From: Phaeospirillum sp.
Lineage (GTDB): Bacteria; Pseudomonadota; Alphaproteobacteria; Rhodospirillales; Magnetospirillaceae
Assembly (NCBI GenBank): GCA_030824585.1
Contig: JAVBXM010000008.1
Span: 1 to 64,000 of the forward strand
Direction: 5' to 3'
DNA length: 64,000 bases
The position numbers and the translations under genes are program-made. Within the stretch, counting starts at the first letter, position 1; the number at the start of each line of letters is the position of its first letter. Under the pieces are notes generated by a model that did not search any database, was not told the origin of the DNA, and saw only the letters and a program-made list of their open reading frames with translations. This document shows, in pieces, positions 22,496-59,780 of the stretch.

Positions 22496-22496
22496 A
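22450..22496 (+). repeat. attL: 47-bp direct repeat, copy 1 (tRNA-Glu 3' part)
   Basis: Identical to 59475..59521 by base-by-base reading. Confidence 0.95.
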
Positions 22497-32307: not shown

Positions 32308-32919
32308 CTACCTGAGTTGTGAATACCCATACTCCCGCACCCGGTACGGGGCATTACCCTTGGTGTGGGTCTTCGCCAGATAGGATGCGCGGGACAACAC
32401 ATAGGCGCGAGAGTTGTCAAACTCCTGACTTTGTTCGTCAAATTCTTGGCCGGAAGCCTTGTCCCTCGGTCGGAGGAGCATGATGCCGTTGTAAGCCGCA
32501 ATCCCGTTGTGGTCATGGTTGCAATGGTCAATCAGTCCCCTTGCACTGACACCAATGATGTTCCCCCAGAGCCGCTCGGCTGCGCTGAAAATCCTGTATG
32601 GGCTCGTCACTTCGTGTCCATCCACGAATACCATGAGGTGATAGTGTGGATTTTCCGATGTCTTCTGCTCCCGTGTCCATATGTACTGAACTTCAATGCC
32701 GTGGAAGCCTAAGCCTTCCCTTAGTCTCTTGGTCATATCCCCGATTTCTCTATTCAATCCGTCATGGGGGTAGTCAGCAGGAAACCTAACGTCTATCCGA
32801 ACACAAAGAACTCTGGAAAATCGCTCAGTCATCCTATCGCAGGTATTTTCGATGACATCCATGATGTCTCGCCTTATTCTCCGATCAATCATTGGCTTAA
32901 CTCCCTTGCTAGTTTTCAT
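32308..32919 (-). CDS. inovirus Gp2/YagK-YfjJ-like protein (possible HUH replication initiator relative)
   Basis: NPHYHLMVFVDGHEV and YVLSRASYLAKTHTKG motifs. Confidence 0.7.
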   Translation of the reverse strand: MKTSKGVKPMIDRRIRRDIMDVIENTCDRMTERFSRVLCVRIDVRFPADYPHDGLNREIGDMTKRLREGLGFHGIEVQYIWTREQKTSENPHYHLMVFVDGHEVTSPYRIFSAAERLWGNIIGVSARGLIDHCNHDHNGIAAYNGIMLLRPRDKASGQEFDEQSQEFDNSRAYVLSRASYLAKTHTKGNAPYRVREYGYSQLR

Positions 32920-33128
32920 AGTATGAGGGAGGTTATCACCAGTAACTCTGAGCTCGTTTCTTGATGTTATTGATGGCTATTACAAATAACCCCTCACAGT
33001 CACAAGCGTCATGGGCGGCAAAAGTCGGCTGGAATCAGCAATCCAGCGCGATTTTTGGGCTATAAATGCGCGTTTTATCGCGTTTTGCGGATGTGCGGAT
33101 GTCCGCGACTTAACTCTTCGACTCCCCC

Positions 33129-33161
33129 CAAAAAAAGACGGCCTGGGCTCTCCCCAAGCCG
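33129..33161 (-). terminator. intrinsic terminator after VWA gene
   Basis: CGGCTTGGGgagaGCCCAGGCCG stem then TCTTTTTTT on the minus strand. Confidence 0.7.
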
Positions 33162-33166
33162 CCCCC

Positions 33167-34654
33167 TTACACGAGCGTTTGCTCCAACATGGAAAAGACC
33201 GCCCTCGGCAATTCGCCGATGGTCGCGATCACCCGGCTGCGACCGGGCAGCAGGGTGGTGATGTGAGAAGACTCGATGCCGAGGCCATAGACCTCGACGC
33301 CCTGGGCCGCTGCTGCTTTGATGGCGGCCCGAACATTGGCGGCGCCATCGGGGCTGCCATCGGTGATGATCAACACCATGCGGCGTTGTTCCGGCAGGAT
33401 GGACAGTCGCTGCAGCACCCACCACAGGGCTTCGCCCATGGGAGTCATGCCCCTGGCTCCCACATCCTGGTATTGGCCCGGACGCTCCCCGTGTCGAAGC
33501 AGAGGAACCACCGTGCCGGGTTCGCCGCCGGGAAAGGCGGTGATCCCCACCGACACGCCAATCAGGGCCATGGCCTGGGCCACAGCGCGGCAGCACTGGT
33601 TGGCAAGGCCGATCCGTTCCCGCATGGAGCCGGAAGTGTCCAGCAGCACATGCAGAGCGGTGTTGATGGCGGGGCGAGCCTGATGGGTGGCGAATACCCG
33701 TGGATTTCCCACGGCCACACCATGGAGACGGCGGGTGTCGATTTTCCCGGCTCTGGCGGGTTTGTGCCTGACCATCCGGGATGATTGCACCAATCCATGC
33801 AGGCGTGCCCGCAGGCCCGCAATGGCATGGTCGATTGCGGCACGATCCTTGGCGTCGGTGGGCAGACGAGGTTTGTTTCCCACAATGGCGACGGTGAGGC
33901 GATTGATCTCCGTCGCGTTCCGCCCCAGAGATTTCCTCAGCACTTGCCCGAAATCGTCGGGGAGATCGTTTTCCCCGGCGGAAATCAGGCTTTGAATATC
34001 GGTACTGATCGCCAAATCCGGGGATGGATTTTGCCCAGGAGACGGAGCTGAATCCTTCAGGCAGCGGATGATCTGGCGGGCATAGTCCAGGCAGGCCAGG
34101 CTATCGGGACAGTGACCGCGCATCCGGTCCAGGACCACTTCCACATCCGGACGCAAGCCCGGCCACTGGCGGTCGATCACGGCAACGGCCTCCCGGCACC
34201 GGGTTGCCAATTCCGGCACGCTCCAGGAGCGAACCGTCAGCAGCAGCCAATCCAGAACCACGGCCACCCCCGAAGGGAGCGTTGACGCCCCCTCCAGGAA
34301 CAGGTGGCGGATCAGCCAGGTAAAATTTTGTCGGCAGCCGGGATAATATGCCGCCAGCTTGGCTTCGACCCGCCAATCCTCGAAGATGTTCCAGATGTGC
34401 CGCTCCAGCGGGGTGGTGTCGGCCTGGGAAATGGCCCGGAACTCGGTGAAGCGGACATGCGCCGCCTCGTGGTCGATATAGCCGCGCACCAAACCCAGGA
34501 AGGCGGCATCGGCTTCAGCGGGAAGGCCGGGAAGGCGGATGACCTTGCCCGTCGTGTAGGCGTCGGTGCCGCCGATCTCGACGGCAACGCCATAAGCCCG
34601 CCCCAGGGCATCGGCCAGCAGGGGCAGGCTTTGCAGGATGGCTGAATTGTGCAT
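33167..34654 (-). CDS. CobT-like VWA-domain protein
   Basis: VLLDTSGSM MIDAS motif; IDHEAAHVRFTEF N-terminal segment. Confidence 0.85.
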   Translation of the reverse strand: MHNSAILQSLPLLADALGRAYGVAVEIGGTDAYTTGKVIRLPGLPAEADAAFLGLVRGYIDHEAAHVRFTEFRAISQADTTPLERHIWNIFEDWRVEAKLAAYYPGCRQNFTWLIRHLFLEGASTLPSGVAVVLDWLLLTVRSWSVPELATRCREAVAVIDRQWPGLRPDVEVVLDRMRGHCPDSLACLDYARQIIRCLKDSAPSPGQNPSPDLAISTDIQSLISAGENDLPDDFGQVLRKSLGRNATEINRLTVAIVGNKPRLPTDAKDRAAIDHAIAGLRARLHGLVQSSRMVRHKPARAGKIDTRRLHGVAVGNPRVFATHQARPAINTALHVLLDTSGSMRERIGLANQCCRAVAQAMALIGVSVGITAFPGGEPGTVVPLLRHGERPGQYQDVGARGMTPMGEALWWVLQRLSILPEQRRMVLIITDGSPDGAANVRAAIKAAAAQGVEVYGLGIESSHITTLLPGRSRVIATIGELPRAVFSMLEQTLV

Positions 34655-34669
34655 GGGAGTTTGAAGCCC

Positions 34670-35665
34670 TTACCATAGGCCGAGGGAGTCCAGCGTGGAG
34701 GCGGGTTCCATCGGCAGATCAGAGGGAAGGTCGTCGTCGTTGAAATCGGGAAAGCGATCGGCGTCCATGTCCGGAGTCTGATCCGCAGCCGGCAGGGCCA
34801 CCAGCCCGAGCAAGGCACCGTTGGGATTCTGGCCTTCGATGATCCGTTGACCGTGTTCGACCATGGCGGCGGGATCGCGGAGCAGGCAGACCAGCCCCTG
34901 AAGCCCCACCAAGGCGGTGCCGGTGATCGGCCCCTTATGGGGCACAGCCGCCAAGGCCGCGTCGATCACATCCACCAGGGGCGTCACCCGAGGCTCGACG
35001 AAGGACAGCCCGGCCAACTTGTGCCGCAGGTTTTTGATGGGAGACAGAGCCTTGGCCGTGACCTCGGCTTTCCCGGCGAAGCTCTTGTGCCACGCCTCAT
35101 CGGCCACCTTGGCGACTTCCCCGAACAGCGAACCGCCGAGGGCATTGACCGCCTCGGTCAGAGTCTGCCCGGCCTGGCCTTTGGGTGGCACGACCTTGAA
35201 CATCTGCCATGCGAAGCCCAGCCGTGCCCGCACGGTGTCGATACCCACCAGCGAGTGGGCGATCAGCGATTCCCAGCCGGGATTGTTGCCGACCCATTCC
35301 TGGATGGCCTGATCGTAGCGGGCGAGGAAGGAGTCCTTGGCGGCGGCGAAATCGGTTGCGATGACTTTCAGTCCCTCGCTCACCGGCTTGACGGCGTTTT
35401 CGGGAATCGCCCAACCGCCGAGGAACCGCATGCCGTGGCGGTCCAACAGCGCAATGGCGCGGGCCTTGAGGGTGGAGAACACCCGCAAATCCTCGGGATT
35501 GCAGACCTTCTTGCTCCCCAGCGAGGCCAGTTTTTCCGGGGGCAAATCCAGGGTGCCGAAATCGGCGGGGGTCAGTTTCTTCCTGGCGGACCAGATATTG
35601 ACATCCAGCCGCAGGGCGATGAGCTGCTTCAAAACGGTGATGTCGGTGGAGATGGCATTGGTCAT
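34670..35665 (-). CDS. DUF3150-like protein
   Basis: Family resemblance plus position between VWA and MoxR-type genes. Confidence 0.65.
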   Translation of the reverse strand: MTNAISTDITVLKQLIALRLDVNIWSARKKLTPADFGTLDLPPEKLASLGSKKVCNPEDLRVFSTLKARAIALLDRHGMRFLGGWAIPENAVKPVSEGLKVIATDFAAAKDSFLARYDQAIQEWVGNNPGWESLIAHSLVGIDTVRARLGFAWQMFKVVPPKGQAGQTLTEAVNALGGSLFGEVAKVADEAWHKSFAGKAEVTAKALSPIKNLRHKLAGLSFVEPRVTPLVDVIDAALAAVPHKGPITGTALVGLQGLVCLLRDPAAMVEHGQRIIEGQNPNGALLGLVALPAADQTPDMDADRFPDFNDDDLPSDLPMEPASTLDSLGLW

Positions 35666-35686
35666 GGCATTTTTCCTTTAGCAGGG

Positions 35687-35879
35687 TGCGGAAAAACTCC
35701 GCTTCGCGGTCGGGCGACTGCCCGAACCCGTTCGGAGGCGCAGCCTCCGAGCCTCCAGTTTGTTTAAAATCAATAATTTAAAAGCTGGAGGGTTGGGGAG
35801 GCTGCGCCTCCCGATTGGGGGATCGGGGGCAAAAGCCCCCGAATTTTGAGTTTTTCCGCAGCTTGTTACGAAGCGGAGG
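35687..35879. repeat. MITE-like imperfect palindrome
   Basis: Arms share TGCGGAAAAACTC, TCGG(G)AGGCGCAGCCTCC and CCTCCAG in inverted orientation around an AT-rich centre. Confidence 0.65.
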
Positions 35880-36852
35880 GAAACAGCCGCTGCCCCAGCT
35901 CGTGGAGCAAAGCGCGGGTGGGCGGAGAGGCGCGAAACCCCAGCGCCCGGTCGAGGGCATAGGTCACGGGCTGGATGCCCGCGCGGGCCAAGGGCTGGAA
36001 CCGCTGGGTCAGATCGGCCCAGCGGATCAAGGTGCGGGTGGAAAAGGTGACTTCGATGCTTTGGTGCCGGCCGTCGCTGTCGCCGATGAACAGGCGGCGA
36101 ACCTCGTTGGCGAATTCGACCATGGTGGAACGCAGATCGGCAGGCAGAGCCGGAGCCCGGCGTTCGAGAATCTGGAGTTCCGCCGTGGAGTCTGGGTAGG
36201 CCACCTCGCACAGCCAGAACCGATCCATGAAGGCGAGGTTCTGGCGAAGCGTGCCCTGGTAAAGCCCGGTCCCATCGGACCCGCCATTGGTGTTGGCGGT
36301 GGCGACGAAGCGGAACATCGGATGGGGCGGAATCACCTCGCCGCCGTTTTCCGGGATGCAGAGCGGCGCACCATCCAACACCCCGTTGAGCCCGGCTGCG
36401 GTGGCCGGGTCCAACAGGTCGATCTCGTTGAGCAGAAACAGCCCGCCGTGCTTCATCGCCAGGGCCAGCGGCCCGTGCTCGAAGCGCATGGAGCCGTTGT
36501 CCACGGTCAGGTGCCCGGCCAGGTCCGGGAACTCCAGCCGTCCGTGGCCGGTGACATCGAACACCGGGTAATTCAGCCGCGCCGCCACTTGGCGGACCAA
36601 GCTGGTCTTGCCGCTGCCGGTGGGACCGAAGAGGTAGAGGGGATCGCTCCCGCTCATGAACCACACCACCAAATCCCGCATGATCGCGGGGAACAGGTAG
36701 TCGGGATCAACGGCGGGAGTGTGCCGGCAGGGAGAAGCGTAGCCCTTGATTTTGCGGCCCGAAGGCTGGCCGCTGAACAAGGCTCCGGCATCGAAATCGG
36801 CAGCCGAAAGGCTGCCGATCTCCGCGAGGGGATCGGTCATGGAATACTCCAT
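35866..36852 (-). CDS. MoxR/CobS-like AAA+ ATPase
   Basis: LFGPTGSGKTSLVRQVAARL Walker A, GGLFLLNEIDLLDPA Walker B, FRFVATANTN sensor 1. Confidence 0.88.
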   Translation of the reverse strand: MEYSMTDPLAEIGSLSAADFDAGALFSGQPSGRKIKGYASPCRHTPAVDPDYLFPAIMRDLVVWFMSGSDPLYLFGPTGSGKTSLVRQVAARLNYPVFDVTGHGRLEFPDLAGHLTVDNGSMRFEHGPLALAMKHGGLFLLNEIDLLDPATAAGLNGVLDGAPLCIPENGGEVIPPHPMFRFVATANTNGGSDGTGLYQGTLRQNLAFMDRFWLCEVAYPDSTAELQILERRAPALPADLRSTMVEFANEVRRLFIGDSDGRHQSIEVTFSTRTLIRWADLTQRFQPLARAGIQPVTYALDRALGFRASPPTRALLHELGQRLFPSAS

Positions 36853-36916
36853 TGAGAAGATGTGGAAATGGGGCAAACCATTGCCCCTCTTGGCATTACC
36901 GTCCGGCCTGCCTAAA

Positions 36917-37306
36917 ATGACCCCGACCAATGCACCCGAGGGATTCATGGGATCGGCATTGAACGCCAAAGGCGTCGGCACAGCCAACGCCGAAACGGTT
37001 AATGATCGTGCCAAGCTGCTGATGCACCGCTTGATCGCGCGTCGCATCCGCTCGCGCCCAGACCTCATCGAATCTGCGAAGATACGGATTGCCCAGAAAC
37101 GGCAGGCCGGGCCGTTGTTCGATTACATTCCGGAGTGGGAAAGCTTGCTGTCCCAGGACGCCGAAACCCTGTGCCGCTCCATTACCAGCCGGGGAGAAGC
37201 GATGGTGCGCTTGCGCCTTAGCTCTCCTCTGGTCGATGTCGTGGACTTCCGCGATCCTCAACTGCGTCGGCGTATCTGGCGCAAGGCCAAGCAGGGTTTG
37301 CGCTGA
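36917..37306 (+). CDS. hypothetical, possible antitoxin partner
   Basis: ORF ends 1 nt before the start of the nucleotidyltransferase-like gene. Confidence 0.55.
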   Translation: MTPTNAPEGFMGSALNAKGVGTANAETVNDRAKLLMHRLIARRIRSRPDLIESAKIRIAQKRQAGPLFDYIPEWESLLSQDAETLCRSITSRGEAMVRLRLSSPLVDVVDFRDPQLRRRIWRKAKQGLR

Positions 37307-37307
37307 C

Positions 37308-37874
37308 ATGTCGGGGCAGAGGACGGCTGATGATCTTTACCGGGCGGTCCGGGCGCTATCGTACCATTTCAAAACGGATACCGTGATCGTGGTCGGCAGC
37401 CAGGCGGTTCTTGTCGGCTGGCCCGAGGCCCCGGCGCTTCTTCGGATGTCCGAGGAAATCGACGCCTATCCGAACAATTACCGTGACTGGGAGCGTGACC
37501 ATCCCGGCGAAGAAGCGTCCGAGGAGATCAACGCCCTCTTCGGGTGGGGATCGCAGTTTCACGACACCCATGGCTTTTATATCGACGGCGTGAACGACGG
37601 GACGGCCAAGCTGCCGGAAGGGTGGATTTACCGCGCCGTGCGTGTCCAGGTCCGGGATGGGGACCATACCGTTTTCGCCGTGGCTCCCTGTCCCGAGGAC
37701 CTGACCGTCTCCAAGCTGTTCCGTATGGCGGAAAAGGACGAGGCGTATATCCGGGCTTGGCATGAAATCCGCCCCTTGGATGTCGAGACGGTTCTTTACC
37801 GCTTCCTCTCCATGTCCCCCGACCCGGCGATTGAAGCGCGGGCTGTCCGGTTTCTAAAAACCATTCCAACCTGA
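37308..37874 (+). CDS. DUF6036-like nucleotidyltransferase
   Basis: VIVVGSQAVLVG...MSEEIDAYP NTase-type GS...E.D signature. Confidence 0.65.
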   Translation: MSGQRTADDLYRAVRALSYHFKTDTVIVVGSQAVLVGWPEAPALLRMSEEIDAYPNNYRDWERDHPGEEASEEINALFGWGSQFHDTHGFYIDGVNDGTAKLPEGWIYRAVRVQVRDGDHTVFAVAPCPEDLTVSKLFRMAEKDEAYIRAWHEIRPLDVETVLYRFLSMSPDPAIEARAVRFLKTIPT

Positions 37875-37936
37875 CCGCTACAGCGTGATGCCGTTGCTGC
37901 GGGCCAGTACGGATATGATGGTCTGGGCCATTGTCG

Positions 37937-38794
37937 TCACCACCAGCCGCTGAAGATGCTGCCGATCTTACCGGCAACCCAATCGACCGCTTTGGCAAGC
38001 GCCGTTCCGGCGACCTCGACGATCACGTCGAGAATCCCCTTTTCCGCATCCCTCTTTGCTTTTTTCGAACGGTATTCCTTCTGTACCTCGCGCAACACGC
38101 CGACCCGCTTTTCGGCAGGCAGGGCGTGAACGATGCCGTCCACCAGTTCCACCAGACCGTATTTCTCTGCGGCGGAAGCGGCCAGAACCTGACCGGGAGG
38201 CAGGCCGAAGAACCCCGCCACCACGCGGCATTTTTCCTCGATATTGGCCGCTTGGCGGGAGCCGGGTTGATGCGCCTTTTCGTCCCATTCCCGGAACGGT
38301 TCGATCTTGTCCACTTGGCTGAGGACCACGAAGAAGGGCTTGCCCACATCCAGATACGGCCTGACCAGCCGTTTGAAGAAATCCTGGTCCACGGCCAGGG
38401 CGCGATCATCGGCCTTGACGATCCACAGCACCAGATCGAGCTTGGGCAGCCATTGCCGATAGAGCGCGTCATATTCGGCGTCACGATCTTCGCTCTCACC
38501 CACGCCGGGAACGTCGAGCAGGGTCATGCCCCTGCCCACAAGGTTGAGCCTGACCTGTTGGGGCGTGCGGGTGCAGGCGGCAATGTCGCTGATCGGGCAT
38601 ATGTCCCTGCCGAACAGGGCATTGCACAGGCTGGACTTGCCCGCCCCGGTCTTGCCGAAGACCCCGACCATCGGTTCGTACTGGATGATGTCGTTGAGCC
38701 GCGACGATATTTGGGTCCGGTATTCCGCAGGGATGTCGATGCCCTGGCGAGCCAGGGCATCGAGGAAGGATTCCACATTGTTCACGTCGATCAT
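37937..38794 (-). CDS. YfjP/YkfA-like GTPase
   Basis: GVFGKTGAGKSSLCNALFG P-loop, LLDVPGVGE G3, VLSQVDKIE G4-like. Confidence 0.82.
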   Translation of the reverse strand: MIDVNNVESFLDALARQGIDIPAEYRTQISSRLNDIIQYEPMVGVFGKTGAGKSSLCNALFGRDICPISDIAACTRTPQQVRLNLVGRGMTLLDVPGVGESEDRDAEYDALYRQWLPKLDLVLWIVKADDRALAVDQDFFKRLVRPYLDVGKPFFVVLSQVDKIEPFREWDEKAHQPGSRQAANIEEKCRVVAGFFGLPPGQVLAASAAEKYGLVELVDGIVHALPAEKRVGVLREVQKEYRSKKAKRDAEKGILDVIVEVAGTALAKAVDWVAGKIGSIFSGWW

Positions 38795-39111
38795 GGTCGT
38801 TCCTGTCTTATGTGAGGGGGGAGTTCGCCCATTTCGGGCGAGGACAGAATCCCTCCTGTCATCATCGTTCCCTCCAAAAGTGAGACGCCCTGCATCCGTC
38901 AGGAAGGCAGGGCGTCGGTTGCTATCGGAGAGGTAATATGTGTCTGAAATTATTTGGAATATTTTGGAAATAACTACCGAACACATCCTAACGCCGACGG
39001 GCGCCAGTTGGAGATTTGATGTCGGCTTTGCGCCCTTGGCGGCTGCTCTGAGGGTTGGCGTCAGTCCCCGGCAGCGGACACTGCAATTTAATGCACTGTC
39101 ACCATAATTTC

Positions 39112-39231
39112 CAAGGTGATCGCCCCGCCCGCGACTGGGCTGTACCCGGTCGGCGTGGCCATCACCGCCGCCGACAATGGCACCGCCATGGTGCGGGTGC
39201 GTTTGGACGGTGTGGCTACCGCTGCCGAGTA
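39112..39231 (+). pseudogene. C-terminal remnant of a phage capsid cement (DUF2190-like) gene
   Basis: KVIAPPATGLYPVGVAITAADNGTAMVRVRLDGVATAAE* with no upstream ORF. Confidence 0.5.
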
Positions 39232-40541
39232 AGCGACCCAGCTCCCCAATCGAAATCCAGATCAAAGACGAGATAGTCGTCATCCTCATCCGTTCCGCCG
39301 GTCTCGAAACGGGCTGCCTGGATCGTGTGCCCCCGGGTCAGCTCGTTATCGAACATATTCGGATGGTCTCCGAAGGCATGACGCTTGAATTCATCGAGCT
39401 GCAGACGCCCGGCCAGATACTCCTGGACCAACCGTGACGAAATTTTGATGGTCATCTGCCCTCCCCCCGTCGTAACAACCGTAGCAAGGTACCATCCACG
39501 TTTCTCGGGGCCAAAGGCGCCTTGACGGTGAAGGTCTCTGGCCTGGTACCCCTCAAACCGCGGCGGTGGCAACTGAGCGGCGAGGGCCGTCAGCCGTTCA
39601 TATTCGCCCGTCGGCACGCTCTCCCTCCGATCGAAGCAACTCACCTTCCAGAAGATGCGGGATTCAGGGACGAGCCACATCTGCCGCTCCCGGTACGGCG
39701 AAAACACGCAAACCACGTCGATGCTGCTGTGCTTGCGCAGCCAGTGGCGGATAATTTCTTCCCCGCCGACCTCCTGGCCGGCTGAACTGATGGGACGCAT
39801 TCGGCGCAGCAGGTCGCAGCCAGCATCCACCAGGAAAACGCATTTCAGCGTACCGGCTCCCGCATCTCGGACCTGGCTGGCCTTCTGCTTCAGTGCCTTG
39901 TAAATCGGGTTGTCTTCAAGATCGTATGCGACAGGCGGCATACGGCAGAAGACTCGAAAATGCGGGGATGGCGCGTCCCGACGGCTCACGACGACATCAG
40001 TCTTTCCCTCGACGATGCGGATGGACTCTGCGCCCGCCCCACCATTCGGTGCAAACCACCAATCAATGGCCTTCTGTACTGCCGGGGTCAGTTTGAAGCC
40101 CGGATCAACGCATCGCTCACGATGAAACCGTCGGTCCCAGTAACTTCGCTCCATGAACTCGAAGTACAGCCGCCGTCCAGCCCCCTTGCTCACCCGATCC
40201 GCATAATTCGCAATGATGTTTGCCGTCCGGTCCATGGCCTCCTTGCCGGAGAAGCTGTCATCGGACAGGGCGCGAACCTCGACAATAGCGGGGGCCGATG
40301 CAAAGAGGTTTTCCGAAAAGGCATCAGGGCGACGCGCAGTGCTGGACAGATCCGGTTCGACGGTCACATCGGCAACGCGCGAAACAGCCCAGAGCATTGC
40401 CAGTTCGGCCTCTGCACCGAGAGCTGCGTCGGTGTTCCTGTTCTCCAGACGCCCCAACAGGTCATGGACCTTGCGCGCATCAAGTGATGCGGACAGGTCG
40501 TCAAGCATGGATCGTAGTCGGCGTCGGGCAAAAATCGGCAT
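39216..40541 (-). CDS. hypothetical, possible PD-(D/E)XK-like nuclease
   Basis: AEAELAML...VEPDLSSTARRPDAF...PAIVEVRAL pattern. Confidence 0.6.
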   Translation of the reverse strand: MPIFARRRLRSMLDDLSASLDARKVHDLLGRLENRNTDAALGAEAELAMLWAVSRVADVTVEPDLSSTARRPDAFSENLFASAPAIVEVRALSDDSFSGKEAMDRTANIIANYADRVSKGAGRRLYFEFMERSYWDRRFHRERCVDPGFKLTPAVQKAIDWWFAPNGGAGAESIRIVEGKTDVVVSRRDAPSPHFRVFCRMPPVAYDLEDNPIYKALKQKASQVRDAGAGTLKCVFLVDAGCDLLRRMRPISSAGQEVGGEEIIRHWLRKHSSIDVVCVFSPYRERQMWLVPESRIFWKVSCFDRRESVPTGEYERLTALAAQLPPPRFEGYQARDLHRQGAFGPEKRGWYLATVVTTGGGQMTIKISSRLVQEYLAGRLQLDEFKRHAFGDHPNMFDNELTRGHTIQAARFETGGTDEDDDYLVFDLDFDWGAGSLTRQR

Positions 40542-40876: not shown

Positions 40877-43408
40877 TTGGACTTTGATGACATCGACTTC
40901 TCTGGAGAGGTCGCTCGACCGACCAACCCCATCGAAATTTTCGAAGCTCTGCCAAGGTTGCCGGACACGCCAAATGACCTATGGCGAGGCCAAGCGCGAG
41001 CGCTAGAGGAGTGGCATTCGGCGCGCGCTAAGCGCGACGTCCTGGTGTCTCTAAACACCGGTGCGGGAAAGACGCTCGTTGGATTGCTAATCGCACAAAG
41101 CCTGGTTCATGAGGGCATTGAGAACGTCGTTTATGCCTGCGCGACGATAGACTTGGTGGAGCAGACAAAGAGAGAAGCAGAGCGTATTGGGATCTCCTGC
41201 ACCACCCGTGTTCGACAAGGGTTTGACAATGACCTATTCGAGACCGGAAGGGCGTTCTGCATTACAACTTATCAGGCGCTATTTAATGGCCATAGTGCTA
41301 TTGTTAGTCGATATTTCCCTGGAGCGGTCATCCTGGATGACGCGCACGTTGCTGAGTCGGTTATGCGAAGTGCGTACACCTTGCGTCTCCAAGGTGAGCA
41401 GACTGCAGCACTTCAGAAGGCTATTGTAGAACTCTTTGAGCCCGACTTTGCGGCACTCGAAAAGCGGGGCGAATTTCAGGATGCCGTGGCTGGCCGGTAC
41501 GGCAAGATAGTCCTTGCCCCTGCGCGCTCAGTCCGAGAACGCAGCGCTCGACTGCGAGCTCTTCTCGAAGAACATGGTGTGCAAGACGGGGATTTGTCCT
41601 ATCCCTTCGCACACCTTCGGGACAAAATAGACAGGTGCGCGGTTCTTTTTGGCTACGGCTGTGTAGAAGTAACGCCACCATTCCTTCCCGCGCTGGCCCA
41701 TCCGATTTTTGAGCGGAAAATCAGGCGTATCTACCTCTCTGCGACTTTAAAATATAAGGCGGACTTGGCTCGAGCGTTTGGTCGGTTGCCTCAACATACG
41801 GTGGAGCCAGACAGTGACGCAGGTAATGGCGAGCGTTTAATATTGCAGTCGCGGTTGCTGGACGCTTCGAAGAAGGAAAAGAAGTTCGGCAAGGAGTTAA
41901 TTAAGCAACTGGCAACCACGCGGAAGGTGGTAGTGGCCGTTCCGACTTATACTGACGCAGAGGAATGGGCTGAAGTAGGAAATCCGCCAACTCCTGACCA
42001 ATTCTCGGCAGAGCTTGAGAAATTCCGCAAGGATCCAGCTGGTTCATTCATTCTCGTTAACCGCGTGGACGGCATCGATCTGCCCCACGACACCTGCCGC
42101 ATCATGATAGCAGAGGGGTTACCAAAGGGCGGTTCGCTCCTAGAGCGCTTCCAGTGGGAATTTTTGCGCATGCGGCACTTCCAAGCGGCACGCATAGCCA
42201 ATCGGGTCGTCCAGCTCTTTGGTCGCATCAACCGCGGTCGTAGCGACTTCGGTACGGTCTTAGTCAGCGGCGAAGAGTTTAATTCGTGGCTAGCGACCGA
42301 GCGAAATTTGGCGCTGCTTCCTGATCTCCTGCGCAAGCAGATCCAGCTTGGCGCAATAGTGCAGGAGCGGATGGAGATTAAGAATGACGCTAAAGTCACC
42401 GATATAGTCGATCGGGTAATTAACCGGGATAAGGGTTGGCTTGATCTGTACGCTCGCTTCTTCGGGCAGGTTAAAGTAGCTGAACGACATGTGGAGCGCA
42501 CGGAGATCGCGGAGAATGGTCTCGCAAATGCTGCGTTGGCCGAGGCGGAGTTCGCCCAATTGTGTTGGGACGGGGATTGGGGCGCGGCAAGGAACGTGTT
42601 TGAGGAAACTATTGAGAGTACTGTGCAGGCTGATGAGTACTTGGCGGGGTGGCACGAATTTTGGCTTGCGGCATGTCATGATCAAGAGGGGGACCCTGAA
42701 GGAGCTCTTGTCGCCTACCGTAAGGCCCGACATAGACTTGGTTCTAATTTGTATATACCGCGAGGAGGAATAGGAGGGCAGGATGAGAATGCCGTAGCTC
42801 TGACGCCTTTTGCGCAAGCTTTGGACAGAGTTGTTTCTCTTACCGCCCATAAGCAGTTTGAGAAGGTTTTCGAGAAACTGCGCGCTGCAATGACCCACTT
42901 GGATGGGGGTACGCCAGGCCAAATGGAGGCTGCTTACCGAGCTCTTGGCGAAGCTCTTGGCTTCATATCTACGCGTCCTGATAACGACGCCGGAACTGGT
43001 CCAGATGTACTTTGGGATTCCCCGGATAATCAATGTTGTCTTGCTATTGAGCTTAAAACGGATAAGAAAACACCCGCCCGGTACACAAAGGACGACATCG
43101 GGCAAGGGCACAACCACCTAGAATGGGTAGCCGCCAACTTTCCTGATAGGAAATGCTTGGGGCTCATTTACGTTGGGCCGGAGGGCGTATGCACCGAAGA
43201 GGCCAGCCCTTCGAAAATGATGTTTCAGGGGACGCCCAGCAACGCCGTTGTCGTCCGGGATCGCCTTTTTGCCTTGATTTCTGACCTCCGGAAACTGCTT
43301 CCGCTCGAGCGCCCCAATGCCATGAAGGAGGCTGCTTCACTAAACCAATGGTCTCTAGCTGCGCTCGTCAGCGAACTGGGCCCGCATGACCTAAAAAATG
43401 GCGCATGA
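40877..43408 (+). CDS. SF2 helicase fused to C-terminal PD-(D/E)XK-like nuclease domain
   Basis: VSLNTGAGKTLVGLL motif I, ILDDAH motif II; C-terminal GTGPDVLW...CLAIELKTDKKTPARYTKDDIGQGHNH. Confidence 0.82.
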   Translation: MDFDDIDFSGEVARPTNPIEIFEALPRLPDTPNDLWRGQARALEEWHSARAKRDVLVSLNTGAGKTLVGLLIAQSLVHEGIENVVYACATIDLVEQTKREAERIGISCTTRVRQGFDNDLFETGRAFCITTYQALFNGHSAIVSRYFPGAVILDDAHVAESVMRSAYTLRLQGEQTAALQKAIVELFEPDFAALEKRGEFQDAVAGRYGKIVLAPARSVRERSARLRALLEEHGVQDGDLSYPFAHLRDKIDRCAVLFGYGCVEVTPPFLPALAHPIFERKIRRIYLSATLKYKADLARAFGRLPQHTVEPDSDAGNGERLILQSRLLDASKKEKKFGKELIKQLATTRKVVVAVPTYTDAEEWAEVGNPPTPDQFSAELEKFRKDPAGSFILVNRVDGIDLPHDTCRIMIAEGLPKGGSLLERFQWEFLRMRHFQAARIANRVVQLFGRINRGRSDFGTVLVSGEEFNSWLATERNLALLPDLLRKQIQLGAIVQERMEIKNDAKVTDIVDRVINRDKGWLDLYARFFGQVKVAERHVERTEIAENGLANAALAEAEFAQLCWDGDWGAARNVFEETIESTVQADEYLAGWHEFWLAACHDQEGDPEGALVAYRKARHRLGSNLYIPRGGIGGQDENAVALTPFAQALDRVVSLTAHKQFEKVFEKLRAAMTHLDGGTPGQMEAAYRALGEALGFISTRPDNDAGTGPDVLWDSPDNQCCLAIELKTDKKTPARYTKDDIGQGHNHLEWVAANFPDRKCLGLIYVGPEGVCTEEASPSKMMFQGTPSNAVVVRDRLFALISDLRKLLPLERPNAMKEAASLNQWSLAALVSELGPHDLKNGA

Positions 43409-43504
43409 GACGCTCTGTATTCGGTTGGGAACCCCTGAGCGACACCACTCAGGGGCCTCCAGATGTTTGATCAAAGGGCCGGCGCGGCTCCAGGAATGCA
43501 TTAG

Positions 43505-44452
43505 ATGACCATTCTCCCGTCGATTTTCGCCGCCTTTCTCGAGCCGATTAAGCTCGTCTACGTGGGGGCATGTACAGACCTTGGCACTGATCCCACTGAG
43601 ATTGGGTTAGCAGTGGAGGATCTGTCCTTCAACAAGGGGGGGTACGAAGGCGAGTTTGCGGCTGTCGAACAACCACCGCAGGTGCGAATTACGTGGAACG
43701 GGCTCGCGAGCCTCTGGGCTTTCAGCCAGGCGGCTGCTCGAGTAGCGCGAGCGATGTTCGAGGCGCAGCGAGCTGCCGATCCAGAAGGACCTCCGCCCGA
43801 GTTGCCAATCGAAGGCGATCTGAAGATGGGTGTTGACATGTTTGAACTGTCAGTTCGTCTCGCTCGGCATCGTTTCGATTCTTGGGTTGATTGGGCGCCT
43901 AAGCCCGACGCCCTGGCAAAAAGTGGCGGAGACGCTGAAGGCAACCAGCTATTCCTCGGGGCGCTGGGTTGGATAATCCGCCATGAGCTCGCCCACCACG
44001 TACTCAGGCATCATGCGCGCCGATCGATTATTCCGGACGAAAATAAAGCACAGGAACTCGAAGCTGACGACCAGGCCACCCGCCAGATGAAAGGGAGCTA
44101 TAAGGCTGATCAAGGACGGGCATACGGCGTCAGGCCCTCTCCGAATGAGATGGAACTCGAACGCCGTGCTCTGGCGATGTTTGTCGGGATGATTTGGGTG
44201 GTGCAGTTCGAACTCGGACCGCATGGCGAGAGCGCAACGCACCCCGATTCTGCCCGACGACTGCGTGGATTAGTTGATAGTCTCGCCCTTTCTCCGGACA
44301 GCTTCGCGGCCGAGATCCTCTCATACCTCGTCAAGGTTCTGATCGACCCTGAAGGCGATTGGCCCGCGGACACAGAGGAAGCAACATCGGGCGACGCAGC
44401 GATTAACGCAATGGTCATGATAACCCGCCACATTAACGCGCAAACGTGGTGA
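43505..44452 (+). CDS. Lit-like (U49-type) zinc metallopeptidase
   Basis: WIIRHELAHHVLRHH HExxH followed by ELEADDQATRQ. Confidence 0.65.
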   Translation: MTILPSIFAAFLEPIKLVYVGACTDLGTDPTEIGLAVEDLSFNKGGYEGEFAAVEQPPQVRITWNGLASLWAFSQAAARVARAMFEAQRAADPEGPPPELPIEGDLKMGVDMFELSVRLARHRFDSWVDWAPKPDALAKSGGDAEGNQLFLGALGWIIRHELAHHVLRHHARRSIIPDENKAQELEADDQATRQMKGSYKADQGRAYGVRPSPNEMELERRALAMFVGMIWVVQFELGPHGESATHPDSARRLRGLVDSLALSPDSFAAEILSYLVKVLIDPEGDWPADTEEATSGDAAINAMVMITRHINAQTW

Positions 44453-44771
44453 TGCAGCAGCAGTTGGATCAACGTTTTTTCGGAAGCGGTTCTTACCGAC
44501 TGGGAAACAGCCCCACGCCAGATCCGCGGGGTGATTGTGGATGGCACTGCGGGACGGCATTAACAATGCCACGCTGATTTTCTGTCAGTGAGAAGGCTAC
44601 TGACCTGCATTGGGAAAATTCCTCCAGTTTGAAGTAGAGTCCGGCCCCTCAGAGGACGGACGACATGAAGCGCAGCAGGTTTATCTAATTCAAAAGCGGA
44701 CCGCACATATTGCGTCGCCCCCGGCGACATGCGTCTATGTTCGTTCGTCGGACTGTGTAGAAGTAAGCACC

Positions 44772-47390
44772 ATGGGGATGTTCGAAGATACCGGAATTTG
44801 GACCCGTTCGATGGATAGGGGAACCGCGCGGGATGACGCTGCGAGGGAGAGACTCCGAGTCGCGTACCGCACCTTTTGGGATAACGCGGTTGTTTTATCG
44901 CGCGAAATTCAGCGCGATATTTCGAATCTCACGCTCCACGACGAAGCCCATTTCGAGGCCCTTTGGAGCAGAGCTGACCAGATTGCGGGACCTAGCCTGT
45001 CGCTCACTCCACTTGAGGCGTTTGTGCTGGGAGGAGCGATCCTGCTGCACGACAACGCCAACTCGCTCGCGGCGTTCGAGGGCGGGCTGGAAGCGCTGAA
45101 GGTTACGCCAGAATGGCGAGATGCGGCGGCCGAATGGCTCGAGCGGGCAGTTGACGAGGCCAAACCTCCGGCGGTTCCGCCGGAGGCAGTCCCACAGGTG
45201 TTGTTTGATGTACTACGTGGCTTGCATGCTGAGAGGGCGCGCACGCTTGCCAGTATGACCGTCAACGCAGGTGGAAAGACATTTCACCTCCTGCCCGATG
45301 ACCAATTGAGAATCCATCTGGGCGATCTCATCGGTGAAATCGCGGCCAGTCACCATTGGGATATTTCGACCCTCCCGGACCGCCTCCCACCGCTTGTAGG
45401 AACCTTAGCTGGAATGCCGGCAATGTGGACGATCCGTCCCGTGCTTCTCGCATGCCTGCTTCGCTGTGCGGACGCCGTTCAACTCGACCAACAGCGCGCT
45501 CCCGACTTTTTGTATGCGATGCTGCGGCTGAGGGGCGTGTCCGAACTGCACTGGCGTGCGCAGAACAGGCTGGCGACGCCGGTTGTGGCGCCAGACGACC
45601 CCTCGGCCCTGATCTTCAGCTCAACGATGCCCTTTAGAGCGGATGATGCGGAAGCATGGTGGGTTGCCCATGACGCCATTCAGGTTGCAAACCGCGAGCT
45701 TCAGGCCTCGAACTCTCTTTTGCGAGACCTCCGACTGCCCCCTTTCGCGGTGAACAGGGTGGAAGGTGCGCGCTCCCCCGCGGCTCTCGCGCAGCACATG
45801 CGCGTTGTCGGCTGGAGGCCGGTCCAAGCTGAGGTGAAGATCACGCAAGTCGACAAAGTTGTGGAGATGTTTGGCGGCGCCGAGCTGTACGGGCAGGATC
45901 TTTCGGCTGCCCTACGTGAACTCATTCAAAACGCCGCTGATGCCATCCGCTTCAGACGTGAACTAGAGCCACCGACTGCCGATTACAATGGGAGCATTAT
46001 CCTTCGAATGGGACCTTGCTCTGGCCAAGGTGGGGATGTCTGGCTGGAGGTAGAGGACGACGGCTTGGGCATGTCCGAGGCGGTGCTCACGGGACCACTA
46101 ATCGACTTCGGCTCAAGTTACGTCTCATCAGCCCTTGTGAAATCCGAGCGCCCAGGGCTGCTGTCCAAGGGACGGAAAAGGATCGGAAAATTCGGCATTG
46201 GCTTCTTCTCGAGCTTCATGCTCGGGGACGAGGTGATCGTTACGTCCCGACCATTCGATGCCGGATTTGACCAAATACGCACTCTTCATTTCCGCCAAGG
46301 TATAGGCCATCGTCCTCTGCTGCTTGACGATCGTCCGTCTGATCTTGGGTGCAACACCTCGACGCGCGTACGACTTCGGTTGACGCCGGAACGATGCGAA
46401 GAGTTACTGAGGATGCCGGGAGGTTTTGGGGAGAAATTACCGCTTACCCTAACTGACCTAGTGGGAATGCTCTGCCCGATGCTGGATGCCGACATCTATG
46501 TCGAAGTCGGGGGCATGCGGCGTATGGTCCACTCCCGCCGCTGGATGGACGAGGATCGCCTCTCATGGCTTCGGCGGATCACTGGGGCCGATGCCCGCAA
46601 CGAAACGCATCTCGACGAAAATCTCATTGCGGCCGCTCCTCTCCTTACTTTTCTCGATCCGAACGATCCGAACGCTGGCCTTGCCTGCATTACGGGATCA
46701 CCCGGTGCGGGTGTTATAGCGGTGGGGACTTTGAGGGCGAGTATGGTCTTCAATCGCTTCTCGGATGACTTCGTTGGAGCGATAGACCACCTGCCGGACA
46801 ACCCGCGGCGTAGTCACGGAAAGCCAAGATTGGATGCGCATCTGGCAGAATGGGCCTCGGATCAGGCCCTCCGTAACCACGATATAGGTACTCCCGTCCC
46901 CCGCCGCATTTACGCTGCCGAGCGCGTTGCTCAATTCGGCGGCGACGCAACACCGATCGCGATGGTCCGGCTGAACCGTGAGTGGGTCGATCTCCAAACA
47001 GTACTCGACCAGCTAGCTGCGTCAGGACCGATCTATGCGCCATTGAAGCTTTCCGGCCATGAAAAACGATTGATGATGACCGTCGTGCGCGAGCGACACA
47101 CTGGATTCCTCGACAACTATCTTCCCGGTGAATTGGAATATTTGATCCCAACGATTGAGACGAGCTCCGATGATAAAGCGCTTTATGCAGTACCAACCGA
47201 GGAAGATTCGGCCGAGAACGGCATCTGCATGCTTCTTACGAGGCTTGCGCTTTCTCGTGGACTAACTGTCAAAGGTGAGATTCAGCAACGTGTTGACTTC
47301 GCGCGCTATGTTGGACCGGCTTCCCCCCGGGAGGGTTTGGAACCCGGGAAGCTTATCGGTTGCAGCGGCCTCCGCTTATGGGTTGAATGA
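44772..47390 (+). CDS. HD-like domain fused to HSP90-type (GHKL) ATPase
   Basis: LRELIQNAADAI N-box, EVEDDGLGMS G1, GKFGIGFFSSFMLGDEV G2; N-terminal LHDEAH...LLHDN. Confidence 0.82.
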   Translation: MGMFEDTGIWTRSMDRGTARDDAARERLRVAYRTFWDNAVVLSREIQRDISNLTLHDEAHFEALWSRADQIAGPSLSLTPLEAFVLGGAILLHDNANSLAAFEGGLEALKVTPEWRDAAAEWLERAVDEAKPPAVPPEAVPQVLFDVLRGLHAERARTLASMTVNAGGKTFHLLPDDQLRIHLGDLIGEIAASHHWDISTLPDRLPPLVGTLAGMPAMWTIRPVLLACLLRCADAVQLDQQRAPDFLYAMLRLRGVSELHWRAQNRLATPVVAPDDPSALIFSSTMPFRADDAEAWWVAHDAIQVANRELQASNSLLRDLRLPPFAVNRVEGARSPAALAQHMRVVGWRPVQAEVKITQVDKVVEMFGGAELYGQDLSAALRELIQNAADAIRFRRELEPPTADYNGSIILRMGPCSGQGGDVWLEVEDDGLGMSEAVLTGPLIDFGSSYVSSALVKSERPGLLSKGRKRIGKFGIGFFSSFMLGDEVIVTSRPFDAGFDQIRTLHFRQGIGHRPLLLDDRPSDLGCNTSTRVRLRLTPERCEELLRMPGGFGEKLPLTLTDLVGMLCPMLDADIYVEVGGMRRMVHSRRWMDEDRLSWLRRITGADARNETHLDENLIAAAPLLTFLDPNDPNAGLACITGSPGAGVIAVGTLRASMVFNRFSDDFVGAIDHLPDNPRRSHGKPRLDAHLAEWASDQALRNHDIGTPVPRRIYAAERVAQFGGDATPIAMVRLNREWVDLQTVLDQLAASGPIYAPLKLSGHEKRLMMTVVRERHTGFLDNYLPGELEYLIPTIETSSDDKALYAVPTEEDSAENGICMLLTRLALSRGLTVKGEIQQRVDFARYVGPASPREGLEPGKLIGCSGLRLWVE

Positions 47391-48417: not shown

Positions 48418-50658
48418 ATGCGAATGGCAATCCGGTTCGTCCTCCCCCTTCTCCTCGTGCTCGGCGGCATCGCCTGGGGCGGAGCGCCGCTGGTCGGCTC
48501 GCTGGTGGAGCGTTGGTTCCGCGCCGACGTGGAGATGCGCTCGCAGCTGGTGTTCAACTCGGTCCAGGAATCGGTGACCGGGCTGGTCCTGGCCAAGGCC
48601 GACCGCAAGATCGACGCCCTGTTCAAGCACATCACCCAGGACGAGCGCCTGCTCGCCCTGGGCCTGTGCACGCCCGATGGGCAGTTGGCCCAGAGGTCCA
48701 CGGCATGGCCGAAAGCCCTGGCCTGTCCCCCGGCACCCGTCCTGAACCATGCCTTCGCCGTCCAGCACATCGACGGCGGGCCGGTCCTGGTCGCAACCTT
48801 CGCCCTGGCCGCTGACAACACCTATCTCGGCCGCCTGGTCATTCTCCACGATTTGCGCTTCATCGAACGGCGCAGCGACAGCGCCGAGCTTTATCTCGCG
48901 GGCTTTCTCGCCCTGCTGGGATTGGGGGCGGCGGGCGTGACCGTGGTGGTCGCCCGGCTGACGCTTCGCGGCTGGATCAAGGCGGTGCGCAAGGGATTGG
49001 CGGGGAACAGCGACGGCAAGGACGATTCCGCCCTTTCGTCAGATGTGGAGCCGCTGGTGCGCGAGATGCGCAAGATCCTGCGCGATCTCGACACGCCGCG
49101 CGTCCTGACCGAAGCCATCCGGGTGGATTGGAGCCCTGACAGCCTGCGCAGCGTGTTGCGCGACGAGTTGCCCGGGGCCGAGGTGATGGTCATCTCCAAC
49201 CGCGAGCCCTACATCCACAATCTCGAGGACGGCAAGGTGGTGCTGCAACGCCCGGCCAGCGGTCTGGTGACGGCGCTGGAACCCATCATGCGGGCCTGCG
49301 GCGGCACCTGGATCGCCCATGGCAGCGGCTCGGCCGACCCGTCCATGGTCGACGAGAACGATCATCTTCAGGTGCCGCCGGACGCGCCCGCCTATACCCT
49401 TCGCCGCCTGTGGCTGTCGGACGAGGAACAGGACGGCTATTACTACGGCTTCGCCAATGAGGGCATGTGGCCGCTCTGTCATATCGCCTTCGTGCGGCCC
49501 AGCTTCCGCGCGGCGGACTGGGAGCAATACGTGGCGGTCAACCGCAAGTTCGCCGATGCCGTGGTGGCCGAGGCCAAAACGCCCAATCCGGTGGTCCTGG
49601 TCCAGGATTACCACTTCGCCCTGCTGCCCAGGATGGTGCGGGAACGCCTGCCCGAGGCGACCATCATCACCTTCTGGCACATTCCCTGGCCCAATCCCGA
49701 GGTCTTCGGCATCTGTCCATGGAAGGAGGAGATTCTGTCGGGACTGTTGGGCTCGTCCATCCTGGGCTTCCACACCCAGTTCCACTGCATCAATTTCCTG
49801 GATTCGGTGGACCGCTTCCTGGAAAGCCATATCGACCGTGAACACAGCACGGTGCGGGCCGGAAACAGCACTACCCTGGTGCGCCCCTATCCCATATCCA
49901 TCGAATGGCCGCCCAGCGCCCTGGCCAGCCAGCCGCCCGCCGAAAAGTGCCGCGAGAGCGTGCGGCACAAATACGGCATCGCTCCCGAGACCAAATTGGC
50001 GGTGGGCGTCGAACGGTTCGATTACACCAAAGGCATTGCCGACCGCTTCCATGCGGTGGGCAGCCTGCTGGCCGCCCATCCCGAATGGATCGGCCGCTTC
50101 ACTCTGCTGCAGATCGCCGCGCCGACGCGCTCGCGCCTTGCCGCCTATCGCGACACCCAGGTCGAGGCGGAAAGGGCTGTCGCCGATGTCAATGCATGCT
50201 TCGGCCGCAACGGCTGGGTGCCGATCATCCTGGTGCCCAAACATCATGAGCCCGAGGACGTGTTCACCCTGTTCCGCGCCGCCGATGTCTGTCTGGTGTC
50301 CAGCCTGCACGACGGCATGAATCTGGTGGCCAAGGAATTCGTCGCCGCCCGGGACGACGAGGACGGCGTGCTGGTGCTGTCCACCTTTGCCGGGGCGTCG
50401 CGCGAATTGCTGGAGGCGCTGATCGTCAATCCCTATGACGTCCAGGCCATGGGCGAGGCGCTGCATACGGGCCTGTCCATGCCCGCCGTGCAGCGCCGCG
50501 AACGCATGCGGCTGATGCGCGAGATGGTGGGAGAGAACAACATCTACTTCTGGGCGGGCCGGATGCTGCTGGATGCCGCCCGCATGCGCAAGCGCCGTCA
50601 TATCGAATATCGCATCGAAGCGGTGACCCAGGGCGCCATCATGGTGGGGAACACATGA
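48418..50658 (+). CDS. otsA: membrane-anchored trehalose-6-phosphate synthase (GT20)
   Basis: Two N-terminal TM helices flanking an extracytoplasmic region, then GT20: [60 protein letters not shown]. Confidence 0.92.
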
Positions 50659-51416
50659 TGGGTGGCCTTCCTCTCTCGGCGGACCAGGCCGGGTGGGCCT
50701 TGTTCCTGGATATCGACGGGACCTTGCTTGACCTGGCGCCCACTCCCGACGGGGTGGTCATTCCCGAAGGGTTGCCGCAAGTGCTTGACTCCCTGGCCCG
50801 CGCCTTGGGGGGCGCCTTTGCCCTGGTCAGCGGCCGGTCTCTCGACAGTATCGACAGTCTCTTTCCCGGCCCATGGGATGCGGTGGGCTGTCACGGCGCG
50901 GAATGGCGCCTGGGCGGCCAGAGGTTCACTCCGCCGCCGCCCTGGCCCGACGGCCTTGTCGCAGGGATCGAGGCCGCCCGGCGCAGGCTTCCCGGCGTCA
51001 TGATGGAGCGCAAAAGCCAGTCCCTGGCGCTCCATTTCCGCGCCGCTCCCGAGCAGAAAGCCGCCGTCCGTACCCTGGCCGCAGCCGCCGTCGCAACGGA
51101 TGCGCATGGCCTCGACCTGCTGGAGGGAAAATCGGTGATGGAGATCATTCCCGCCGGAAACAGCAAGGGCCTGGCCATCGAGCGCTTCATGCGACTACCC
51201 CCCTATGCCGGTCGGCGGCCGGTCTTCGCCGGCGATGATGTGACCGATGAAAGCGGTTTTATCACCGTCAACGCCATGGGCGGACTGTCCATTCATGTGG
51301 GTGACAGCCCAACGACCCAGGCGCTGTTCCGCTTTCCCGATCCCCGGGCCATGCGCCATTGGCTGAACGGACTCGATACCGCAATAGGAGGACACCAAGA
51401 CCATGAGCACCCTTGA
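50655..51416 (+). CDS. otsB: trehalose-6-phosphate phosphatase
   Basis: LFLDIDGTLLDLAPTP HAD motif, FAGDDVTDE. Confidence 0.93.
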   Translation: MMGGLPLSADQAGWALFLDIDGTLLDLAPTPDGVVIPEGLPQVLDSLARALGGAFALVSGRSLDSIDSLFPGPWDAVGCHGAEWRLGGQRFTPPPPWPDGLVAGIEAARRRLPGVMMERKSQSLALHFRAAPEQKAAVRTLAAAAVATDAHGLDLLEGKSVMEIIPAGNSKGLAIERFMRLPPYAGRRPVFAGDDVTDESGFITVNAMGGLSIHVGDSPTTQALFRFPDPRAMRHWLNGLDTAIGGHQDHEHP

Positions 51417-53181
51417 TCTCGGCGTCATCGGCAATTGCAACATTGCAGCCCTGGTGGACGCGCAAGCCACCATCGTCTGGGGGTGTTTCCCCCGCATGGA
51501 CGGTGACGCGGTGTTTCATGCCCTACTTAACGAAGGAAAGGGCGATGGAATGTTCTCCATCGAACTGGTCGACCAGCTTCATTCGGAACAGGCTTACCTT
51601 CCAAATTCGGCCATCCTGCGCACGACGCTTTATGACCATCATGGCGGTATTGCCGAGGTGGTGGATTTCGCGCCTCGCTTCGCCTTGTACGAGCGCATCT
51701 TCCGCCCGCCCATGATCGTCCGGCGGATCAGGGCGATCCAGGGGCGGCCGCGGGTGCTGGTGCGGCTGCGGCCCGGTTTCGAGAATGGCGGGCTGAAGCC
51801 CCAGCTCACCCGGGGCAGCAATCATCTGCGCTATGTGTCGCCCGCCCAGACGCTGCGCCTGACCACCAATGCGCCGGTCTCCTACATCACTGAGGAACGG
51901 CCCTTCGTCCTTGACCGGCCCATCGACATGCTGCTGGGCAGTGACGAAAGCCTTCAGGCCGGGGTGGAGACCACGGCCCGCGACCTGTTCGAGCGGACGC
52001 TGGACCATTGGCGCAGTTGGGTCCGCTCGCTGTCCATTCCCTTCGAGTGGCAGGACGCGGTGATCCGTGCGGCCATCACCCTGAAGCTGTGCAATTTCGA
52101 GGAAACCGGCGCCATCGTCGCGGCGCTCACCACCTCCATCCCGGAAGCGCCCGAGACCCAGCGTAACTGGGATTACCGCTTCTGCTGGCTGCGCGACGCC
52201 TATTTCGTCATCCATGCCCTGAACCGTCTCGGCGTCACCCGGACCATGGAGGACTACCTGCGCTTCATCAACGACATCGTCGAGGAAGCCCAGGACGGGG
52301 AGTTGCGGCCGGTCTACGGCATCACCCGCGACACCTCCATCGACGAGATCACCATTCCCCATCTGGCCGGGTATCGGGACTTCGGGCCGGTGCGGGTGGG
52401 CAATCAGGCCCATATCCAGATCCAGAACGACGTCTATGGCAGCGTGGTGCTGGCCTCGACCCATGCCTTCTTCGACCAGCGCCTTGCCCATCCGGGCAAT
52501 GCCGCCCTGTTCGAGCAGTTGGAGCGCCTGGGCAATCGCGCCGTCGCGGTGTTCGACAAGCCCGACGCGGGGCCGTGGGAGTTGCGCACCATCGCCTCGG
52601 TCCACACCTTCTCGTCCGTGATGTGCTGGGCCGCCTGCGATCGCCTGGCCAAGATCGCGCGCCATATCGGCCAGACCGACCGCGCCATCTACTGGCGCCG
52701 CGAGGCCGACCGCCTGCACGCCATCATCTGCCAGCGGGCCTGGAATGCTGAAAAGGGCTGCTTCGCCTCCACCTTCGACGGCGACGAGTTAGACGCTACC
52801 CTTCTTCTGCTCCACGAAGTGGATTTCCTGGCCGCCGACGACCCGCGCTTCGCCGCCACGGTGGATGCCGTCGCCGGCACCTTGCGCACCGGCGACTTCC
52901 TTTATCGCTATGTGGCCGAGGACGATTTCGGCCGCCCTTCGACCGCCTTCCTCATCTGCGTCTTCTGGTATATCGACGCTCTGGCCGCCCTGGGGCGGCA
53001 CGACGAGGCCCGCGCCCTGTTCGAGACGGTGCTGGCGCGTCGTAATCCGCTGGGGCTGCTATCCGAGGATATCGACCCACGCAGCGGTGAATTGTGGGGT
53101 AATTTCCCCCAGACCTATTCCATGGTCGGGCTGATCAACTGCGCCATGCGGCTGTCCAGGAATTGGGAGGACGCTTTCTGA
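51403..53181 (+). CDS. glycoside hydrolase family 15 protein
   Basis: NWDYRFCWLRDAYFVIHAL and GH15 (glucoamylase/trehalase) architecture. Confidence 0.9.
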   Translation: MSTLDLGVIGNCNIAALVDAQATIVWGCFPRMDGDAVFHALLNEGKGDGMFSIELVDQLHSEQAYLPNSAILRTTLYDHHGGIAEVVDFAPRFALYERIFRPPMIVRRIRAIQGRPRVLVRLRPGFENGGLKPQLTRGSNHLRYVSPAQTLRLTTNAPVSYITEERPFVLDRPIDMLLGSDESLQAGVETTARDLFERTLDHWRSWVRSLSIPFEWQDAVIRAAITLKLCNFEETGAIVAALTTSIPEAPETQRNWDYRFCWLRDAYFVIHALNRLGVTRTMEDYLRFINDIVEEAQDGELRPVYGITRDTSIDEITIPHLAGYRDFGPVRVGNQAHIQIQNDVYGSVVLASTHAFFDQRLAHPGNAALFEQLERLGNRAVAVFDKPDAGPWELRTIASVHTFSSVMCWAACDRLAKIARHIGQTDRAIYWRREADRLHAIICQRAWNAEKGCFASTFDGDELDATLLLLHEVDFLAADDPRFAATVDAVAGTLRTGDFLYRYVAEDDFGRPSTAFLICVFWYIDALAALGRHDEARALFETVLARRNPLGLLSEDIDPRSGELWGNFPQTYSMVGLINCAMRLSRNWEDAF

Positions 53182-59340: not shown

Positions 59341-59474
59341 TGCGAGCTTCCCACAAATTTCCCACAATTATGTACCCGAACGGTGCCGATCTCACAAGGA
59401 CAAATATACACTAACTCATTGATTTTAAATTATTCGCTAGCGTTCGCCGGCGTCCGGAAAGTCACGTTTAGTCC

Positions 59475-59521
59475 CCCTCTCACGGCGGTAACCGGGGTTC
59501 GAATCCCCGTGGGGACGCCAA
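59475..59521 (+). repeat. attR: 47-bp direct repeat, copy 2
   Basis: Identical to 22450..22496. Confidence 0.95.
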
Positions 59522-59780
59522 GCGATTTTTCCAATAAAATCGATCAGGTAACCGCTAGTGAAAACGGCGTTGCGAGTGCATTTGTGAGCGTCTTCGGTGA
59601 CGCCCTCGGTTGCTCTTGAACGTCGGTTTACGGCGCTCCAGTACTGCCGGCGTGGGTAATTGTGCTCCAAGTGGAGCGGTCCGGCCAAGCCTGAGACCCA
59701 GCCAGAGCGGCGCCGCAGACCAATAGGCTGGCGCCCGGCAACGCGCCCATGGCCTGGAACAAGGTTTTCCCCAGGGATCG

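Follow-up and report, generated by a model that had tools for sequence, protein, structure and literature searches.

Adjacent hna, Lit-like and HD-CE/HSP90 genes on a tRNA-Glu integrative element of Phaeospirillum are best read as separate defence-type modules

Introduction

Do three neighbouring genes of Phaeospirillum sp. act together as one undescribed anti-phage system, or do they lie side by side as independent modules? The question arises from a 64,000-nt stretch of contig JAVBXM010000008.1 (assembly GCA_030824585.1), referred to here as the window. An earlier note, made from the sequence alone, had described within it three co-oriented island genes, encoding an SF2 helicase with a C-terminal PD-(D/E)XK-like domain, a Lit-like zincin and a GHKL/HSP90-type ATPase with an HD-like N-terminus, and had proposed them as a candidate undescribed defence cluster. 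All three open reading frames are present on the plus strand where that note had placed them and, with the start of gene 3 revised as described below, span 40877-43408 (gene 1), 43505-44452 (gene 2) and 44772-47390 (gene 3). From the identity of each product, the distribution of the genes and their neighbourhoods elsewhere, we conclude, with a probability of roughly 0.87, that the hna, Lit-like and HD-CE/HSP90 genes are not one system but separate single-gene defence-type modules, adjacent to one another within a 37-kb element integrated at tRNA-Glu.

Results

The window contains a tRNA-Glu gene at 22420-22495, and its 3′ end forms one copy of a perfect 47-bp repeat (attL, 22450-22496, plus strand), the other copy of which lies at 59475-59521 (attR, plus strand). 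A tyrosine integrase gene adjoins attR on the minus strand (58054-59367; Phage_integrase, 8.3e-25). In relatives, the DNA that follows tRNA-Glu corresponds to window positions 59475-59590, so that the bases following attR continue what is elsewhere found downstream of the tRNA gene; we therefore take 22497-59521 (37.0 kb) to be an inserted element. In one relative, G144, the end of the tRNA recurs as a 48-bp copy approximately 24 kb from the tRNA-Glu gene, which suggests that the site there is occupied by a different insert. The hna, Lit-like and HD-CE/HSP90 genes are cargo of the tRNA-Glu element.

The element has other contents as well. Genes for trehalose synthase/phosphatase occupy 48418-53181 together with a GH15-family gene; genus mates have related DNA (~76-88% identity) on other contigs, where the trio is absent. 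A run of genes on the minus strand (32308-40541) is divergent from the trio; it encodes a 441-aa protein with no Pfam match (39216-40541), a dynamin-like GTPase (37937-39289; PADLOC LeoA, 43.5 bits), a CbbQ/MoxR-type AAA protein, a DUF3150 protein, a CobT/VWA protein and a YagK/YfjJ-like protein, and is possibly another conflict module or a plasmid-type operon. Outside the element, 59780-63449 is homologous to genus-mate DNA that sits far from tRNA-Glu (83% in G144), and the DNA beyond attR has therefore been rearranged between genomes.

Gene 1 encodes 843 aa with the domains originally assigned to it, a helicase portion (ResIII/DEAD, 1e-12, Pfam) and a C-terminal PD-(D/E)XK nuclease whose core (E684-GPD710-E725xK727; 42926-43105, plus strand) is invariant in nine homologues. 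The same is true of the SF2 motifs GxGKT, DDAH and QxxGRxxR, which are also common to Hna, and of the Walker A region (GAGKT, K65; 41045-41074, plus strand). A search of PDB sequences with gene 1 gave one match, 10UJ/9YKJ/9YHN, over residues 9-759 (E=1.1e-53, phmmer), and according to the depositing paper 10UJ and 9YKJ are Hna of Sinorhizobium meliloti (PMC13381803). The two proteins share 29% identity across 710 aligned residues. K65 of gene 1 aligns with K72 of Hna, and P709, D710, E725 and K727 align with P712, D713, E727 and K729, the last of which is required for nuclease activity in that the K729A mutant of S. meliloti Hna is nuclease-dead (PMC13381803); all tested helicase and nuclease motif residues are kept between the two proteins except Q743/K741. 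Gene 1 also scores 1044 bits against PDC-S28, an unpublished single-gene candidate in PADLOC. S. meliloti Hna (residues 10-762) itself matches PDC-S28 at 945 bits, from which it follows that PDC-S28 and Hna are one family; each of the two proteins matches both PADLOC PDC-S28 models. As judged from its sequence, then, gene 1 is an Hna protein.

Gene 2 encodes 315 aa that match Peptidase_U49 (PF10463) with 44 bits against a cut-off of 23.9 (E=2.6e-11), in line with the initial view of it as a Lit-like zincin, and the PADLOC Lit model also recognizes it. The HELAH zinc motif spans residues 160-164 (43982-43996, plus strand). H160, E161 and H164 of this motif, together with E184, D188 and A191, are invariant across nine homologues, and E184, which lies downstream in the sequence ELEADDQA, is likely to be the third zinc ligand. 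This layout of invariant residues resembles that of M48-type metallopeptidases. The AlphaFold model of the protein is confident (pLDDT 87), with HExxH on a confident helix; it had no match among solved structures in the PDB, and a search of the PDB for a U49 sequence found none. Against the NCBIfam Lit equivalog (NF007238) gene 2 reaches 68.9 bits, below the cut-off of 274, and for this reason we regard it as a divergent family member rather than an orthologous Lit. Its sequence places it as a divergent Lit-family (Peptidase_U49) metallopeptidase.

The start of gene 3 required separate consideration. An 83-bp segment upstream of it (44600-44682, plus strand) is a remnant of an IS end, comprising one inverted-repeat side and the first transposase codons, and shares ~90% identity with the end of an IS3-type element that the same genome carries on another contig (C59). 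The start codon first listed for the gene, TTG 44610, lies inside this remnant and was rejected. The alignment with homologues begins at residues 54-60, which makes ATG 44772 (or 44778) the most probable start, the former giving a protein of 872 aa. This protein contains an HD-CE domain (44925-45704, plus strand; 167 bits against a gathering score of 27, E=7.6e-49, most of the Pfam model covered), followed by an HSP90-type ATPase domain (45906-46250, plus strand; E437/N441, DDGLGM, GKFGIGFFS) that matches HATPase_c_3 at 1.2e-6; the original call of a GHKL/HSP90-type ATPase with an HD-like N-terminus is upheld by these matches. HSP90 structures in the PDB match at 2.5e-9, in the ATP-binding domain only. 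Both predicted active sites are conserved: in eight homologues with varied neighbours, the HD residues D111, H114, D148, H248 and D288 are invariant, as are the ATP-site residues E437, N441, D444, D483, G485, G487, M488 and GxxGIGFFS, and the homologues that carry these residues stand alone. Gene 3 accordingly encodes one protein that joins HD-CE to an HSP90-type ATPase and has kept its HD and ATPase residues. Comparison with PADLOC, which placed genes 1 and 2 in the named families PDC-S28 and Lit, matched no family to gene 3, and the literature searched yielded nothing relevant on HD-CE or HSP90-HD defence. Of the three genes, only gene 3 is without a named system.

The distribution of the genes was surveyed at several levels. 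Among 318 genomes of the same order, Lit-like and Hna genes were each found once, in both cases in the present genome, and HD-CE genes five times; among 327 genomes of the same class there were four HD-CE genes over the cut-off, five Hna and one U49/Lit, with overlap only in the present genome. This is therefore the only genome in either survey to hold more than one of the three. A scan of an 85,462-species collection gave 13 Lit-like loci. Neighbourhoods were compared at loci from elsewhere that, after merging of duplicates, numbered ~15 for Hna, 15 for Lit-like and 9 for HD-CE, with flanks of a few kb to 10 kb. Each of these ~39 distinct loci holds one of the three genes and none holds two, a count that describes sampled loci and genomes rather than an exhaustive set.

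These results bear directly on the proposal of one multi-gene defence system in which the helicase-nuclease, the protease and the HSP90/HD ATPase act together. The genes are indeed consecutive, co-oriented and confined to one island, as such a system would have them. However, their neighbours elsewhere are distinct, with no two of the three found together at any of the homologous loci, and hna on its own restores phage resistance to S. meliloti that lacks its plasmid (PMC12445080). Within the window, the genes are separated by 96 bp (genes 1 and 2) and 319 bp (genes 2 and 3), and the IS remnant sits in the latter gap. A possible terminator stem-loop in the gap between gene 1 and gene 2 did not exceed chance expectation, and a second check likewise placed it below chance. 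On the co-occurrence data (318 and 327 genomes and the ~39 loci) we reject a single three-gene system, which we consider extremely improbable. The anti-phage flavour given to the trio at the outset survives; its status as an undescribed three-gene system does not, since the genes do not co-occur elsewhere and gene 1 alone is the named, structurally solved Hna.

One set of neighbourhoods points in a different direction. At two loci on plasmids of Agrobacterium pusense and S. meliloti (L009, 3793-5553, and L011, 3771-5531), a protein with HATPase_c_3 and Shedu SduA_C domains adjoins the Hna homologue in divergent orientation. A GHKL ATPase thus lies next to Hna in two related rhizobial plasmids, so that some Hna-GHKL link is possible, perhaps a loose functional pair in which gene 3 would regulate gene 1 or supplement it. 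This GHKL-SduA_C ATPase is the sole hint of such a link, yet it differs from gene 3 in having no HD-CE domain, and L009 and L011 are closely related to each other. Moreover, annotated Hna loci of Janthinobacterium, Swingsia, Exiguobacterium, Nitrosomonas, Paenibacillus, Terribacillus, Streptomyces and a Ti plasmid show no neighbour named as such an ATPase. The neighbours of hna vary, and Hna loci elsewhere have no Lit-like or HD-CE partner, which is consistent with the single-gene mode of action of Hna (PMC12445080; PMC13381803). We therefore regard a pairing of genes 1 and 3 as very unlikely and retain the reading of three separate modules.

That reading must also be weighed against the idea that gene 2, gene 3 or both have no defensive role and are on the element by chance: gene 2 could be a metallopeptidase of housekeeping type, and gene 3 an enzyme that resembles a chaperone or serves nucleotide metabolism. 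The score of gene 2 far under the Lit equivalog cut-off would fit this, as would the lack of a PADLOC family for gene 3, and neither gene was found among phage records. In contrast, both genes are sporadic in the order and class surveys and keep their catalytic residues, and their relatives are located on plasmids and adjoin known or candidate defence genes. In Zymomonas, for example, a TIR-NLR gene lies near the HD-CE gene, and at an Agrobacterium locus (L010, 4413-5851) the Lit-like gene is directly downstream of the PADLOC candidate PDC-M21B/C genes. We judge a non-defence role for these genes to be unlikely and favour their interpretation as defence-type modules.

Discussion

The trio region is best read as an ordinary defence island whose modules are independent of one another: Hna is a known system, the Lit-like protein belongs to a known family, and the HD-CE/HSP90 gene is a putative defence gene. 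The supposed new system of three genes is thereby removed as a false lead, and the published Hna system proves to be the same family as PADLOC's unpublished candidate PDC-S28. The HD-CE/HSP90 gene remains of interest in its own right, being mobile and sporadic, with intact catalytic residues and no description found in the literature searched.

If the modules are independent, each should have its own mode of action. S. meliloti Hna is an inhibited dimer held by ATP, from which a phage ssDNA-binding protein releases a 3′-5′ ssDNA exonuclease, leading to abortive infection (PMC13381803). By homology, the gene 1 product would likewise form a self-inhibited dimer held by ATP; a phage single-stranded-DNA-binding protein would break this dimer, and the 3′-5′ ssDNA exonuclease so freed would bring about abortive infection. 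In E. coli, the Gol peptide of the T4 capsid protein activates Lit, which then cleaves EF-Tu (PMC9712102). The gene 2 product, a predicted zinc peptidase, may, like Lit, stay inactive until a phage protein prompts it to cleave a protein of the host. For gene 3, acting as a stand-alone effector, the most likely mechanism is that ATP-driven clamping of the HSP90-type module would control the HD-domain phosphohydrolase. It is tempting, although rather doubtful at present, to speculate that gene 3 could be the founding example of a putative class of anti-phage effectors that work as single genes, with an HD-domain phosphohydrolase under the control of an HSP90-type ATPase clamp.

The resemblance to known systems differs from gene to gene. 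Hna and gene 1 have nearly the same size (845 versus 843 aa), the same arrangement of SF2 helicase and C-terminal PD-(D/E)XK nuclease and the same motif residues, the catalytic lysine among them; they differ in sequence, as the modest identity given above indicates, and in their best PADLOC model, which is PDLC04987 for gene 1 and PDLC04986 for S. meliloti Hna. Lit and gene 2 have in common an HExxH peptidase domain, a similar length and the PADLOC Lit match (4.8e-20), whereas gene 2 falls below the NCBIfam cut-off for equivalogs of Lit. The HD-CE family (PF24391), for which the literature searched gave no experimental function and which is absent from PADLOC, includes proteins with an HSP90-type ATPase, and gene 3 shares their order of HD-CE followed by an HSP90-like ATP-binding domain. 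With the HtpG/HSP90 chaperones gene 3 shares the ATP-binding motifs of their N-terminus, but the likeness spans only ~120 residues, the score against the HtpG equivalog (41.4 bits) lies below its cut-off of 371, and in gene 3 the ATPase is preceded by the HD-CE domain.
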